Positions 3,907 through 10,529 of a stretch of 31,693 nucleotides of DNA are shown in pieces (position 1 is the stretch's first letter; each line of letters opens with the position of its first letter). The translations under genes and the position numbers were made by a program. The stretch is from a virus, in IMG/VR virus record IMGVR_UViG_3300037862_000019, positions 1-31,693 of that record; one strand, written 5' to 3'. The notes beneath the pieces were generated by a model that had not been told where the DNA came from, searched no databases, and saw nothing but the letters and a program-made list of their open reading frames with translations.

Positions 3907-4365
3907 TTATGCAGGTTCAACGGGCCAATCGTTCTCGCCCAGATACGGGAAGTTAGCATGATCCGTGATGTCGCGCAAAGCCTGACGATAGGTAGCCCAT
4001 GCTGTAGCGTTAACAGGAGCATCAGCAATCTGGGTCCAGTCACTGTCGGACAGCAGTTGGTTGCGGGTATTACGGATGTCGTCTGCTTGCTGTGCTGCCC
4101 GCTGAGAAACTTCATCTGGCGTAGCATCGGTGATGACCCATGTCTGCTGCCATTGACCGTCTACAAGGGCTGGTTGGCCTTCTGTGAGGTTCTGTGTGTG
4201 ATCTACGTTGGGCCTGTCAGCCTTAGCAACAGGGTAAACACCCCAATCTGCTAACATCTCGTCAGATACACGCTTGGGAAAGCTAGTGTTTGGGTTGTCA
4301 CGACGCAGGTTGCCGACCGTGTAGGGGTACTGGTTGATCTGGTCATTTGTAGTTTTGACGAACAT
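3907..4365 (-). CDS. Putative phage tail assembly chaperone
   Basis: A 152-residue protein. The C-terminal half has a helix ending RNQLLSDSDWTQIADAPVNA followed by WATYRQALRDITDHANFPYL, which is the signature arrangement of the phage tail assembly chaperone family (R..LL..sDWTq..DaP......a..aYRqaLRdit). These small proteins accompany tail-fibre genes and help fibre folding or attachment. It lies directly downstream of the lectin-like fibre gene, as expected for a fibre/chaperone pair. A GGAGA ribosome site precedes the ATG. GC content is slightly lower than that of the neighbouring late genes, suggesting it may have moved together with the fibre gene. Confidence 0.75.
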   Translation of the reverse strand: MFVKTTNDQINQYPYTVGNLRRDNPNTSFPKRVSDEMLADWGVYPVAKADRPNVDHTQNLTEGQPALVDGQWQQTWVITDATPDEVSQRAAQQADDIRNTRNQLLSDSDWTQIADAPVNATAWATYRQALRDITDHANFPYLGENDWPVEPA

Positions 4366-4409
4366 TGTGTGTCTCCGATCTGTTCGTGGCTGTTTTAGAT
4401 AAATTCAAG

Positions 4410-5096
4410 TTATACAGGGACTCGCCTGACGGCACGAACATAGAATGAATTGGACTTTTGGCTGGTGGCCTGACCGCCGTTACTGAAGATCTGTCTCCAA
4501 GCGTACAAGTCAGAAAACTCTGAAGAAGGCCAGTAGTTTTCTAAAGCAAAGGCTTCTGTACCTCCCTCCATGAAAGCTGTTACGGAAGTTTGACTAGGTG
4601 TCCCAGAAGTATAAGCAGCACCTGTCGGGTTACTGTTGCGATTAACACCCATTGTGTCAGCCAACAGATCGTTCCCTTCTGGGTATGTAATAGAAGACTT
4701 TGCTCTATTTGACGAGGCGTTATCTCGGGTAGTTGGTTTAAGGTTACGATAGCAAATCTCTAGTTCATCTCTGGCAGGAAGATACCAATCAGAAAAACCA
4801 CCAATGGTTAGACCCTCACAAAACTGTGCCGCTGGGTAAGTAGAAGAGTTCATAGAGGCAGATGCAGCAGGGCCGTTGTTTAGTGTTTGAGTAGCTGAAG
4901 GTGCGGCAGTATTGCTAGTCTTAAATTGTTTACTTGAGCTCTCACCAGAAGACTTAGGGGCGACAATAATATAATACTCAGTCCCCCCCTCAACAATATT
5001 ACCAGCATAGAAACCACCACCAAATGCCTGACCAATTTCGGTTGGACCTTTTTTGACCCCCGCAGCAGCCTGCATCATAATCCGTGCAATACTCAT
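4410..5096 (-). CDS. Receptor-binding tail protein with DUF1566/C-type-lectin-like C-terminus
   Basis: A 228-residue protein starting [14 protein letters not shown] chose the ATG at 5094-5096 because it forms an ATGA overlap with the upstream fibre gene; a longer frame would start at 5129. Residues 1-110 are Gly/Ser/Thr/Asn-rich, fibre-like. From about residue 95 the protein carries a DUF1566-type, C-type-lectin/formylglycine-enzyme-like fold: [20 protein letters not shown], then [20 protein letters not shown] and a terminal [11 protein letters not shown]. This architecture is used by phages for receptor binding and is a frequent target of diversity-generating retroelements. Two hand-counted 60-bp lines gave about 35 and 42 % GC against about 63 % in a line of the upstream gene, so recent transfer is likely. 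Confidence 0.8.
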
Positions 5097-5725
5097 GCCA
5101 GCGCCGCCCCAGCCAAGAAGCCATACCAAGTCGTGCCGCCATCATGGGTAATAAAGGCGTAAATGTTTACCTCATTGCTTGCAGGAGCATCAGGCGCTTC
5201 ACCCCCAGCCCAGTCAACCGAGGCAGGCCATGTGATCGTGCGGGCTGTGCTGTCTTGGACGATCTTGAGCGTGAAGCCAAAGGCGCGCCCAGAGGCAGGC
5301 GGGTTGCTGAATGTGTAGGTCACGTTCTCGGTCAGCGCATGCGTGAACACGTTGCCATCGCGGCAGTTGATCGTTGCTGCGTTGGATGTTGATGTGACCG
5401 TGGTTTCATCCTCAACAACGCCGCCGTCGAAAATCGCCACGCCGTTTGCGTCTGTCGTGACAGCCTTGCTGGCCTCAGAGGTGCCAAGCGTTGTGATGTC
5501 GAGATAGTTCAACTCAGCGGCGGTGGCCGTGACGCCGTCAAGGATGTTCAATTCAGCCGTTGTGATCGTCGCCCCGTCAAGGATGGCAAACTCAACATTG
5601 GTCACACCGCCGAGAAGCGTATCGATCGCATCCCAGTTTGCGTTCAGCTTCGTTCCCCAAGTGTCTTCAGAAGCGCCGACCTCAGGCTTTGTGAAGGTGT
5701 AATAGGTTGTTGTTCCGTCAGCCAT
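5093..5725 (-). CDS. Tail fibre protein with ELNxLDG repeats
   Basis: A 210-residue protein. The N-terminus ([20 protein letters not shown], then [15 protein letters not shown]) is the common adaptor segment of fibre proteins in marine phages. Residues 48-80 carry short tandem repeats of the type [20 protein letters not shown] and TAAELNYLD, typical of trimeric fibre shafts. The C-terminal part ([45 protein letters not shown]) is a beta-rich head-like domain. It starts in a TAATG overlap and ends in an ATGA overlap with the lectin-like gene, suggesting the two make one fibre complex. Confidence 0.8.
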
Positions 5726-7294: not shown

Positions 7295-7342
7295 TGATGG
7301 ATTTCCTTTTAAGTTTGTCGCACATTACCATACCCCAGCCCG

Positions 7343-10087
7343 TCACGCTAGACCGCGCAGGTTCCGTCTGATCGGTTCGTTCTTGGTTGCACTCTCACCA
7401 CGGGCTGTTGGTGCGAAGACAGCCACAAGGCCAGCAGCATCGCTGTTGCTAACCAGAACCCCGTTGGCGAAATAACAGTGGTGATGGTTAACAGTCAGAT
7501 CGTAAACTGGCTTCTCGCTGCCATTCCGACTTATAGCGACAACTCTTGCCGCCCCGCTGAGAAACGTAAAAGCCGCGCTTAGGCCAGAACCAAAACTTGG
7601 TGCCGCCATACTCTCTGAAAAAGCGGTCCTATACCCCGCAGCGTTTGCGTTCTCCAACTTCAGACATGACACATCCTCATTTGTGATTATCATGTCACCA
7701 TACCCGATTGCATCTGCAACAAAAACGCCTTCAGTCGTAAATACTTTATGCTCTGGCGTCATTTCTAATTTGCGCCCGTCATCAAGCGTTATCTGCACTG
7801 TTTCGCAAGCTGTCTTTACCATGCCAGACCATTCAACCAATGCATATCCGGCAGGCGTTAGAACGAAGTCACCAGCCATCACATCCTTGATCTGCACCGC
7901 CCCACGGCTGGTAGAAACAATGGCGTCACCGGTTAAACACGCGTGACTAGCCCAGTCGTGATCTGGCCCCAAGCCAATCTCGCGCTTGTCGTCCCATTTC
8001 TCGTGATACCATGACAGCGCCTCACGCCCGGCAACCGTTGCGTCCTCGTTGAACCGACACTGCGGGAACATGGACCGCAGCGCGTAGATTCGCTGGACGG
8101 CAGCGCCCTTGCCTTGGTTCGGCACCACATACGTTGCGAACCCAGCCTCTCGCAGAAACTTCTCCGGCGTTACGCTGTAAACGTTGTCGTGCTTAACCCC
8201 ATCGTGCGGCAGAACGCAGGTCGCATCAGCATAGTTGTTTTCACGCAGCCAATTGACGTGCGCCTCGAATGGCTGGCCGACAGCCTCGTAGTAATCCAGC
8301 CAGCGGATCTCCTCACCGACATACTGCACGATCCACATTGCCGTGGCATCCGCTGACGATGATGTTGAGCCAATGTCCCAGACCGCATAGACCTTGTTCA
8401 TGCCGTGCTTGTTGTAGAACCCGATCCGGTTTTCCTTGCGCGCCACATCCAGCAGATCGGCATAATATGCCCCCTTCAACGCCCGCAGATATGCGCCTTC
8501 CCAGACGTGATCGTAGACCGCCTTGTCGAGCGTCTTTTCCTGCTGTTCACGCAGCGCCTTTAGGCCATCGGGGAAATATGGGTTGTCGCGCCAGTTGATC
8601 TCCGCTGAGAACAGGCCCGGCGGATTGTCTTGGCGGAAACGCCTGTCAACCGGGCTGCGTTCCGTCTTTGGATTCCACAGCGCCCAAATCTCGGAATTTG
8701 GCTGGCGAAACACCGTGGCCTCAAGAGCGAGCCATGACCCTTCTGGAATGTCCTCAGCTTCCTCGACAATGGTTAGATCAATCTTGGCCAGCGACTTGAT
8801 GGATTGTTCGTTCCTGCGCAGACCCCGAAAGATAAACTCCGTCCCATTCGCGCCTCGGATGTAATCCACGCCGACATCGTAGTGCGCCTCAAGCCACGGG
8901 TGCGCCTCGATAGCCGCCTTGATCTCGGCGTGCATGGATTGCTTGATGCTGGCTTGAAACTCTCGGACGCACAAGATCCGCAATGGCTCTGCGTAGCCCC
9001 ACACAGCGGCCATAAGAGACGCACTGAACGACTTGCCAGAATTATGGTTTACGATGCCGTTGGATAAATAATTGTTTGTCCCAAATACGTGCAAGTCCCA
9101 GTATTTAAGGCGGCTGTGCTTGCGGATGCTCTCCACCTTTGATACCTTAAAGTCACCACAACCATGAAAGGCATCAAAAGATGGAAAGCTATTCCGAACG
9201 TCGCGCCCAAAAATGCCGTGAAGCATTTTCGGGATTTCAGCCTGATTTCTCAAGCTGCCGAGACCCAGAACTGGCGCGAACGATACTTGATCTTGCACGC
9301 GAAGGGAAGACGTCTGCCCAGATAGCACAGGTGGCAGGCAAAACACCAAAGGCAATTCAGAAATTCTTTCGCCGATACGATTTCCCCAACCTGCACAACA
9401 TTGAAGTGCGGAGGATGCAAGAGCAGCCAATGTGGAACGGCGGCGAGAAGCTGATGAAGGGTTACATCTATCGGCGCGTCCCAGATCACCCGAATGGGAC
9501 AAAACATGGCAACTATGTCGCCGTGCATCGCTTGGTGATGGAGCGAAAACTAGGTAGGTATCTTCTTCCGACCGAAGTTGTGGATCACATTGACGGCAAC
9601 ATTCAGAACAATCACCCTGACAATTTGCGTGTGTTTTCCAGCAATGCGGAGCATCTTCGGGAAACCCTGAAGGGAAAGCGCCCAAATTGGAGCGCCGCCG
9701 GAAAACGTCAAATTTCTGACGGGAAGAAAGAATACTGGATCCAATGGCGAGAGAACAAAGCTCACGCCATCCGTCAGGAGTAAGAAATTTGTGCTGGTCG
9801 GTGGCGACAATGCTACGGCCATTGTCCAGCGCGACTTCAAACAAGTCCTCCTCAGTAAACTCCGTAGCTGGCGTCGCTTGGGAAACAACTATTTTCCCTT
9901 CAGACCACGAGTAAACACTGCCGCCCTTAAATTCTGAAACCTTCACTTGACCAGACGGCGTGTCAATCAATGCGTCTGGATGCAGACACCCTCGGCCACC
10001 GTAGATAGCCCGATACCGTGCAGCGCCCCTGTTTGGCGACAGGACAGGCACCAGCTTCGGCGGAAGTTTAATCGTCGCGTTTGTCAT
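7343..10087 (-). CDS. terL: Terminase large subunit interrupted by two inteins
   Basis: A 914-residue precursor. Removing two inteins (residues 34-349 and 717-881) leaves a 433-residue ATPase-nuclease, a normal size for the PBSX/Terminase_3-type packaging motor. The reconstituted Walker A loop reads GGRGSGKS. Walker B is LTIVEEAEDIPEG (about 438-450) and the coupling region is WALWNPKTERSP. The RNase H-like nuclease starts at VWDIGSTSSSADATA (D571) and ends with DHDWASHA joined to SDAAGLV, whose Asp (883) is the expected last metal ligand. Both inteins therefore sit inside catalytic motifs, so the motor should be inactive until spliced. The start overlaps the small subunit by 20 bp. The protein cuts and pumps phage DNA into the procapsid through the portal. 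Confidence 0.95.
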   Translation of the reverse strand: MTNATIKLPPKLVPVLSPNRGAARYRAIYGGRGCLHPDALIDTPSGQVKVSEFKGGSVYSWSEGKIVVSQATPATEFTEEDLFEVALDNGRSIVATDQHKFLTPDGWRELCSLAIGSSILSSRQKFDVFRRRSNLGAFPSGFPEDAPHCWKTHANCQGDCSECCRQCDPQLRSEEDTYLVFAPSPSDARRHSCHVLSHSGDLGRADRCNPSSASRRRSTLAALASSALQCCAGWGNRIGERISELPLVFCLPPVLSGQTSSLRVQDQVSFAPVLGLGSLRNQAEIPKMLHGIFGRDVRNSFPSFDAFHGCGDFKVSKVESIRKHSRLKYWDLHVFGTNNYLSNGIVNHNSGKSFSASLMAAVWGYAEPLRILCVREFQASIKQSMHAEIKAAIEAHPWLEAHYDVGVDYIRGANGTEFIFRGLRRNEQSIKSLAKIDLTIVEEAEDIPEGSWLALEATVFRQPNSEIWALWNPKTERSPVDRRFRQDNPPGLFSAEINWRDNPYFPDGLKALREQQEKTLDKAVYDHVWEGAYLRALKGAYYADLLDVARKENRIGFYNKHGMNKVYAVWDIGSTSSSADATAMWIVQYVGEEIRWLDYYEAVGQPFEAHVNWLRENNYADATCVLPHDGVKHDNVYSVTPEKFLREAGFATYVVPNQGKGAAVQRIYALRSMFPQCRFNEDATVAGREALSWYHEKWDDKREIGLGPDHDWASHACLTGDAIVSTSRGAVQIKDVMAGDFVLTPAGYALVEWSGMVKTACETVQITLDDGRKLEMTPEHKVFTTEGVFVADAIGYGDMIITNEDVSCLKLENANAAGYRTAFSESMAAPSFGSGLSAAFTFLSGAARVVAISRNGSEKPVYDLTVNHHHCYFANGVLVSNSDAAGLVAVFAPTARGESATKNEPIRRNLRGLA
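7445..7939 (-). other. Mini-intein 2 at the TerL nuclease active site
   Basis: The 165-residue intein (precursor residues 717-881) begins at Cys717 (CLTGDAIVSTSRGAVQIKDV, block A). Block B is LEMTPEHKVFTTEG (T777, H780). Block F is PVYDLTVNHHHCYFANG and block G is VLVSN, with Ser882 as the +1 residue. The penultimate residue is Ser instead of the usual His, a known tolerated variant that can slow Asn cyclisation. There is no endonuclease domain; the linker is about 65 residues. Splicing joins DHDWASHA to SDAAGLV, restoring the last acidic residue of the terminase nuclease site. Its sequence differs from intein 1, so it is an independent insertion and not a duplication. Confidence 0.9.
9041..9988 (-). 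other. Intein 1 in the TerL Walker A loop
   Basis: The 316-residue intein (precursor residues 34-349) starts at Cys34 (CLHPDALIDTPSGQVKVSEF, block A). Block B is IVATDQHKFLTPDGWREL, with the TxxH pattern at T96-H99. The C-terminal block F is YWDLHVFGTNNYLSNG and block G is IVNHN, followed by Ser350 as the +1 nucleophile. Splicing would join GGRG to SGKS. Only about 120 residues are recognisable splicing domain. The region between blocks B and F (about residues 123-303) matches no sense-strand LAGLIDADG or HNH motif and is instead the complement of an HNH gene on the + strand (9181-9783). Predicted standard Cys/Asn/Ser chemistry. Confidence 0.92.
9181..9783 (+). CDS. HNH homing endonuclease encoded antisense inside intein 1
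   Basis: A 200-residue protein on the strand opposite to terL. Residues 31-66 form a helix-turn-helix-like DNA-binding segment (REGKTSAQIAQVAGKTPKAI). Residues 94-160 are an HNH_3-type nuclease: GYIYRR, a tip-in segment NYVAVHRLVMERKLGRYLLP, and the ββα-metal core VVDHIDGN at 133-140 (D135, catalytic-type H136, N140), then NNHPDNL (N144, N148). An AAAGG ribosome site lies 9 nt before the ATG; no convincing promoter was seen. It occupies exactly the position where inteins usually carry their endonuclease, but in reverse. Its last 20 codons lie opposite the conserved region after intein block B. Probable role: cleaving an intein-less terL allele to drive homing. Confidence 0.88.
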   Translation: MESYSERRAQKCREAFSGFQPDFSSCRDPELARTILDLAREGKTSAQIAQVAGKTPKAIQKFFRRYDFPNLHNIEVRRMQEQPMWNGGEKLMKGYIYRRVPDHPNGTKHGNYVAVHRLVMERKLGRYLLPTEVVDHIDGNIQNNHPDNLRVFSSNAEHLRETLKGKRPNWSAAGKRQISDGKKEYWIQWRENKAHAIRQE

Positions 10088-10475
10088 CAGCCGATGCGGC
10101 CTCGATGATTATGCGCGTCGGCGCAAGTGATCCGTCGCTGGATGTGACGTCCTGCTCTACCTTGTCGGAGTAGCCGTGCTTGGTCATCATCATCTTTGTG
10201 ATAGGTGCGTTGAAAACCCCACCAAGACCGCCGCGCAGCAATTGACGCTCTTGCGTTTCGGCTATTTTGCCAAGGATGTTAGAAAACTCTTTTGTTTTGT
10301 CATTTGCCCAGACGTGGCAAGTCTCGCGGCGAACGCCAATCTCACATGCCAAACCTGCCACACTTGGCACAAGGTCGCCAACATTTTCCCATCCGCCATT
10401 GGCGTATTCCCAAGCCTTCTCGACAAGTTCTGGCGTGTAGTCTGTTGGACGTCCTGCTGGCACTTTGTTCTCCAT
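10068..10475 (-). CDS. terS: Terminase small subunit
   Basis: A 135-residue protein directly upstream of, and overlapping by 20 bp, the terminase large subunit gene. It opens MENKVPAGRPTDYTPELVEK, a start typical of phage DNA-packaging small subunits (GRPtdYtpe), followed by a predicted helix-turn-helix (PSVAGLACEIGVRRETCHVW) and a helical oligomerisation segment (FSNILGKIAETQERQLLRGG). The C-terminus is acidic and disordered (EAASADDKRDD). The role is recognition of the packaging site and regulation of TerL. No strong ribosome site is visible before the ATG. Confidence 0.88.
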   Translation of the reverse strand: MENKVPAGRPTDYTPELVEKAWEYANGGWENVGDLVPSVAGLACEIGVRRETCHVWANDKTKEFSNILGKIAETQERQLLRGGLGGVFNAPITKMMMTKHGYSDKVEQDVTSSDGSLAPTRIIIEAASADDKRDD

Positions 10476-10529
10476 TGTTGGCGCGATTGTAAGCGTTATC
10501 GGTATTTTTCACAAGGCTTTTGCCCCATG

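Follow-up and report, generated by a model that had tools for sequence, protein, structure and literature searches.

Can one stretch of DNA encode the middle of an intein on one strand and, on the other, the homing endonuclease that would mobilize that intein? The question is raised by an IMG/VR virus record, analysed here as a single window of 31,693 nt, in which the gene of the large terminase (TerL) is interrupted by two inteins. We consider it very probable that intein 1 is mobile and that a separate gene, antisense to it, encodes its homing endonuclease. The anatomy of the locus, the constraint on both strands, horizontal movement, the empty sites and the loss of the HNH gene to leave mini-inteins were read from sequence; from these we infer splicing, cleavage by the HNH protein at the P-loop site and transcription of the plus strand. 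The features of the locus are as follows.

7343-10087, minus strand: TerL precursor (large terminase) with two inteins, 914 aa; open reading frame, Pfam and PHROG profiles
9041-9988, minus strand: intein 1, 316 aa, TerL residues 34-349, inserted in the Walker A/P-loop GGRG/SGKS
9707-9988, minus strand: N-terminal splicing half of intein 1, residues 1-94 with blocks A and B, folded in the predicted structure
9170-9706, minus strand: linker of intein 1, residues 95-273, predicted disordered, the stop-free sense reading of the antisense HNH gene
9041-9169, minus strand: C-terminal splicing half of intein 1, residues 274-316 with blocks F and G, folded in the predicted structure
9181-9783, plus strand: predicted HNH homing endonuclease gene, 200 aa, ATG start; open reading frame, profile matches
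within 9181-9783, plus strand: parts of the HNH protein, an HTH at about residues 29-66 and an HNH core at about 112-160, VVDHIDGN...NNHPDNL
9165-9180, plus strand: likely ribosome-binding site and spacer of the HNH gene, GAAAGG...
7445-7939, minus strand: intein 2, a 165-aa mini-intein of TerL

Anatomy of intein 1 and its antisense gene

The frame is open over the full 914-aa TerL ORF (7343-10087, minus strand), and its matches to Terminase_3 and PBSX-type terminase profiles are broken up by intein splicing domains. Intein 1 joins the P-loop at GGRG / C...HN / SGKS, and its precise excision gives GGRGSGKS, the same sequence as in intein-free relatives. The residues that define an intein (Cys, Ser or Thr at position 1, a block B TxxH, a C-terminal His-Asn and Cys, Ser or Thr at +1) are present as Cys1, T63 and H66, H315-N316 and a +1 Ser, and are invariant or nearly so among aligned relatives. 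The first-pass annotation had described an intein with splicing blocks and no sense-strand endonuclease, a complete antisense HNH gene at 9181-9783 and an intein frame open across that gene. This description was borne out by the splicing residues and profile searches, by the HNH ORF with its Pfam HNH_3 and PHROG matches, and by a TerL ORF that is open throughout. Profile searches detected no endonuclease domain in the sense frame of intein 1, which is therefore not a conventional homing-endonuclease intein with an in-frame endonuclease domain: the HNH is antisense, and the sense linker (9170-9706, minus strand) has no domain match. Arg, Pro and Cys are frequent in the linker and Lys and Tyr scarce, a bias that the HNH codons probably dictate.

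Structure prediction agrees with this division. In an AlphaFold2 model run on the intein alignment, with two phage-collection rows left out, residues 1-94 and 274-316 have a pLDDT of ~95 and residues 95-273 one of ~30. The best fold matches in the PDB are DnaB inteins (TM 0.75-0.86 by target), with RecA inteins also at the top; model, fold matches and PDB intein profile matches all place intein 1 in the HINT splicing fold. The ends of the intein are thus predicted to form a DnaB-like splicing domain, and the antisense-encoded middle to be disordered.

The HNH gene spans intein residues 69-270 on the opposite strand, in a phase that sets HNH codon position 1 opposite intein position 1 and HNH position 3 opposite intein position 2. 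Its product matches Pfam HNH_3 (E=4e-11) and PHROG HNH families (down to 1e-27), and H116, D135-H136, N144, N148 and H158 are invariant in the alignment. The AlphaFold2 model (mean pLDDT 91) combines HTH-like helices with an HNH core, so that a catalytic HNH motif and a DNA-binding domain are both recognizable from the Pfam and PHROG matches and the modelled HTH. The best fold match is I-HmuI, a weak one (E 0.06, probability 0.99), and I-HmuI is also the sole nuclease in the PDB profile search with the HNH. The first-pass annotation had further given the gene a ribosome site of its own. A site is present, GAAAGG ~9 nt upstream of the start, but it is weak in the window; many relatives have an AGGAG-type site. 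Shine-Dalgarno-like sequences lie ahead of HNH starts in 44% and 65% of cases; at control positions the figures are 8% and 7%. The first-pass annotation had also proposed that the HNH would be made early and TerL late. A scan for sigma-70-like promoters gave chance-level matches only, with none on the plus strand upstream of the HNH gene, and leaves this timing a conjecture.

Relatives, empty sites and movement

A search for other inteins with an opposite-strand HNH, as the first-pass annotation had proposed, recovered two families, related to each other, which at 90% nucleotide identity form 25 and 48 clusters. Within both, members share strand and phase and, where it can be read, the insertion site.

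Family 1 was assembled by searching viral contigs with the HNH and the intein, and contains 33 distinct HNH sequences. All 31 loci in which both intein halves are present have the antisense HNH between them in constant phase, and the intein frame is fully open in 29 of the 31; one of the others has a single stop (L006) and the other a frameshift that hits both frames (L061). An intein frame broken where the HNH is intact, which had been named in advance as evidence against a double-coding locus, thus occurs in one of the 73 clusters, L006, and its stop is a local change relative to the sibling L019 (96% identical), in which the frame is open. The intein search returned 29 loci, all antisense-HNH inteins except for two mini-inteins, L062 and L065, which have no intact HNH. 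L062 aligns with L044 apart from an in-frame deletion, and all that it keeps of the HNH is a short antisense remnant.

Family 2 includes cultured phages: Pectobacterium phage Ymer and its relatives, Dickeya phage Setonix and Pseudoalteromonas phage PHS3, with eight Pectobacterium/Dickeya phages and PHS3 among the carriers. Their HNHs are ~33-45% identical to that of the window. Searches with the Ymer and PHS3 HNHs gave 240 relatives, of which 80 were kept. In all 82 loci (the 80, Ymer and PHS3) strand and phase are the same and there are no stops in either the HNH frame or the antisense intein frame, against 2 to 17 in the two remaining antisense frames. Readable junctions place the insertion in the terL P-loop, before SGK[ST] or TGKS. 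In one locus (L203, 3977-4510; the same match recurs in L204) the N-terminal part of the HNH is lost and the 226-aa intein frame is still open. GTDB species genomes yielded no relatives with either HNH alignment. HNH matches in Thibault, ctXG6705 and L037 proved to be ordinary free-standing genes with an antisense frame full of stops, and plasmid matches were distant HNH genes.

The database records of Ymer, Abuela and Sabo list the entire TerL precursor as a "hypothetical protein" and leave the HNH unannotated; in the PHS3 record the HNH is annotated and TerL truncated. These misannotated TerL records (L067, 1583-3847; L068, 1688-3814) apparently result from the intein with its antisense HNH.

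Comparison of HNH and terminase sequences indicates that the intein and its HNH move as a unit between very different terminases: the window HNH is 84% identical to that of L003 and 78% to that of L005, whereas the TerL proteins are 27% identical in both cases. Most TerL relatives have no intein 1 and an intact GGRGSGKS. L074 and L075 match the TerL exon of the window at 100% identity across the searched part, and both have an empty site exactly at the position of intein 1. Of the phages that are 99% identical, L001 and L002 carry intein 1 and not intein 2, and L076 and L077 carry neither. Since the window has both, these mixed states in near-identical phages, with intein 1 alone, intein 2 alone or neither, imply that both inteins were recently gained or lost. 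The insertion site is strongly conserved P-loop DNA, which would make a suitable target across unrelated terminases. Empty alleles and horizontal transfer fit an HNH that would cut the element-free allele at the insertion site, and the truncated HNH with an open intein frame (L203) and the deleted HNH (L062) are the decay forms expected of a homing cycle. In family 2, HNH and TerL identities are correlated (0.88), and much of the spread may therefore be vertical.

HNH genes beside terminase genes can also serve in packaging (discussed in PMC10448857). HK97 gp74, for example, takes part with terminase in cos cleavage, and the HNH could be a packaging cofactor of that kind rather than a homing enzyme, located within terL as a matter of gene order. 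We regard this role as unlikely, given that near-identical phages lack the HNH and the intein together, that mini-inteins have lost the HNH, and that the HNH travels with the intein from one terminase to a very different one.

Constraint on the two strands

Across lineages the HNH frame has a dN/dS of 0.06-0.22, with changes at third positions, indicating purifying selection. The linker frame has a dN/dS of 1.4-2.6, which is not positive selection: it arises because the wobble bases of the HNH are second positions of the intein. It follows from this contrast that the HNH is the constrained protein and that the linker need only stay open. The family 2 HNH typically ends 40 nt inside the N-terminal end of the intein, so that its tail overlaps the folded splicing half. 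In this zone the dS of the HNH is 0.31 instead of 1.17 and the intein-frame ratio 0.74 instead of 2.55, as would be expected if both strands were constrained.

These values also bear on whether the locus is a once-mobile element that now consists of a splicing intein and a relic HNH. Degenerate HNHs do exist (L203, L062), but the dN/dS of the HNH is low in all lineages, its catalytic residues and SD sites are conserved, and its presence or absence in near-identical phages suggests recent movement, all of which makes this very improbable.

The openness of the intein frame was assessed against a null model in which HNH genes were shuffled among synonymous codons, with protein and codon usage preserved. 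The 73 clusters together contain one intein-frame stop opposite the HNH, against ~480 expected. Family 1 (25 clusters) has one stop against 142.7 +- 8.3 expected, a value as low being reached in 0 of 2000 shuffles, and a control antisense frame has 250 against 233.5. Family 2 (48 clusters) has none against 336.8 +- 13, and 469 against 482 in the control frame. For the window HNH alone, the probability of an open intein frame is 0.0005. Wherever a Phe codon precedes a codon with A as its first base, an intein-frame stop is unavoidable; no such pair occurs, against 43.5 and 40.1 expected. Applied elsewhere, the test gave no comparable depletion (TerL exteins 253/249, window genes 188/222, two free-standing HNH genes 22/20). 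A conserved HNH family combined with this depletion of stops excludes a chance origin of the open antisense layout, and the dual-strand intein/homing-endonuclease locus of the first-pass annotation is strongly supported by the comparative data (stop depletion, dN/dS, layout).

That the HNH alone is functional, with the open intein frame a by-product of codon usage and TerL restored in some other way, such as RNA splicing, would accommodate the unconstrained linker residues and the stop in L006, but it is scarcely credible beside a stop depletion unlike control frames and genes, splicing residues conserved at both ends and an Rfam search with zero intron families. The same search, covering 7300-10500, disposes of a group I or group II intron with an antisense endonuclease gene.

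A mobile intein with a separate antisense endonuclease would work as follows. In the sense direction, TerL would be translated with the intein, whose splicing halves would fold together, excise it and restore the P-loop; the middle of the intein would be an unstructured loop, visibly required only to be free of stop codons. Read on the other strand and from a ribosome site of its own, this DNA would give an endonuclease of HTH-HNH type, which would cut terL copies without the intein at their P-loop sequence. Repair of the cut gene would then copy both the intein and the HNH gene into the cut allele.

Known systems and significance

One class of split inteins has a free-standing endonuclease gene between the halves. 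As in these, the splicing part and the endonuclease of intein 1 would be separate products; in that class, however, the host gene is in two, the gene between is in sense orientation and no continuous intein frame runs over it. In Salmonella phage S16 and Proteus phage PM2 (L072 and L073) the UvsW helicase appears to be divided over two genes with another gene between, and the first ends in the N-terminal half of an intein. The S16 and PM2 matches resemble split inteins with a sense gene between, the likely nature of both loci, and were rejected as an antisense case. I-HmuI, like the window HNH, joins an HNH fold to a separate DNA-binding part; it is encoded within a group I intron, and its similarity to the window HNH is only distant.

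Among described systems, the TerL inteins of mycobacteriophages are large and contain an in-frame endonuclease, and antisense genes are unmentioned (PMC5050341). Intein 1 is like these conventional TerL inteins in its splicing domain, its conserved TerL motif, the endonuclease in the middle and its sporadic distribution (PMC5050341), and unlike conventional inteins in that the endonuclease belongs not to the same polypeptide and frame but to a separate opposite-strand gene facing a disordered intein loop. Antisense homing endonuclease genes are known from nuclear group I introns (I-DsqI, L2066 introns), for which antisense expression and cleavage have been shown (PMC9548176). There, too, the gene lies on the opposite strand of its splicing element, but such introns are removed as RNA and need not be ORFs, whereas an intein must be one, so that here the bases code on both strands. 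The ShiLan domain is an HNH concealed out of frame within a phage methylase (PMC11855218); it shares with intein 1 the phage setting, the mobility and an HNH gene overlapping a host-frame reading that is kept open. It lies on the same strand in the third frame, has no splicing domains and is neither intein nor intron, whereas the intein 1 HNH lies on the opposite strand of an element with a splicing domain and so is not of the ShiLan type (same-strand, out-of-frame HNH without splicing domains). A full-text search of the open-licence literature found no description of an intein with an antisense endonuclease.

Intein 2 provides a second layout. In L074, whose TerL exon is 100% identical to that of the window, intein 2 (4102-5118) has 339 aa and holds the gene of a 233-aa HNH_3 protein (4374-5075) on the same strand in another frame; intein 2 of the window is a shortened form without the HNH. 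It resembles a ShiLan-type insertion in strand and frame, yet it is an intein. The same-strand out-of-frame layout recurs in L235, L236 and L239, where the HNHs are 34-40% identical and the overlapping frame is open. This second layout suggests as a general rule that any frame of an intein can house an endonuclease gene, provided that the intein itself stays readable. Intein 1 likely represents a class of phage inteins, widespread and of long standing, whose DNA codes for linker and endonuclease at once, with expression split by strand.

Such inteins depart from the usual picture of the homing endonuclease as part of the spliced polypeptide. They offer an unusually clean case of overlapping genes, in which ~480 expected stops are reduced to one, with phylogenetic replication and natural controls in the mini-inteins and empty sites, and they suggest a route by which a free endonuclease gene combines with a mini-intein. 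They would also explain misannotated terminase genes in cultured phages, and the cultured phages with this layout offer systems for examining splicing, cleavage and antisense expression directly.
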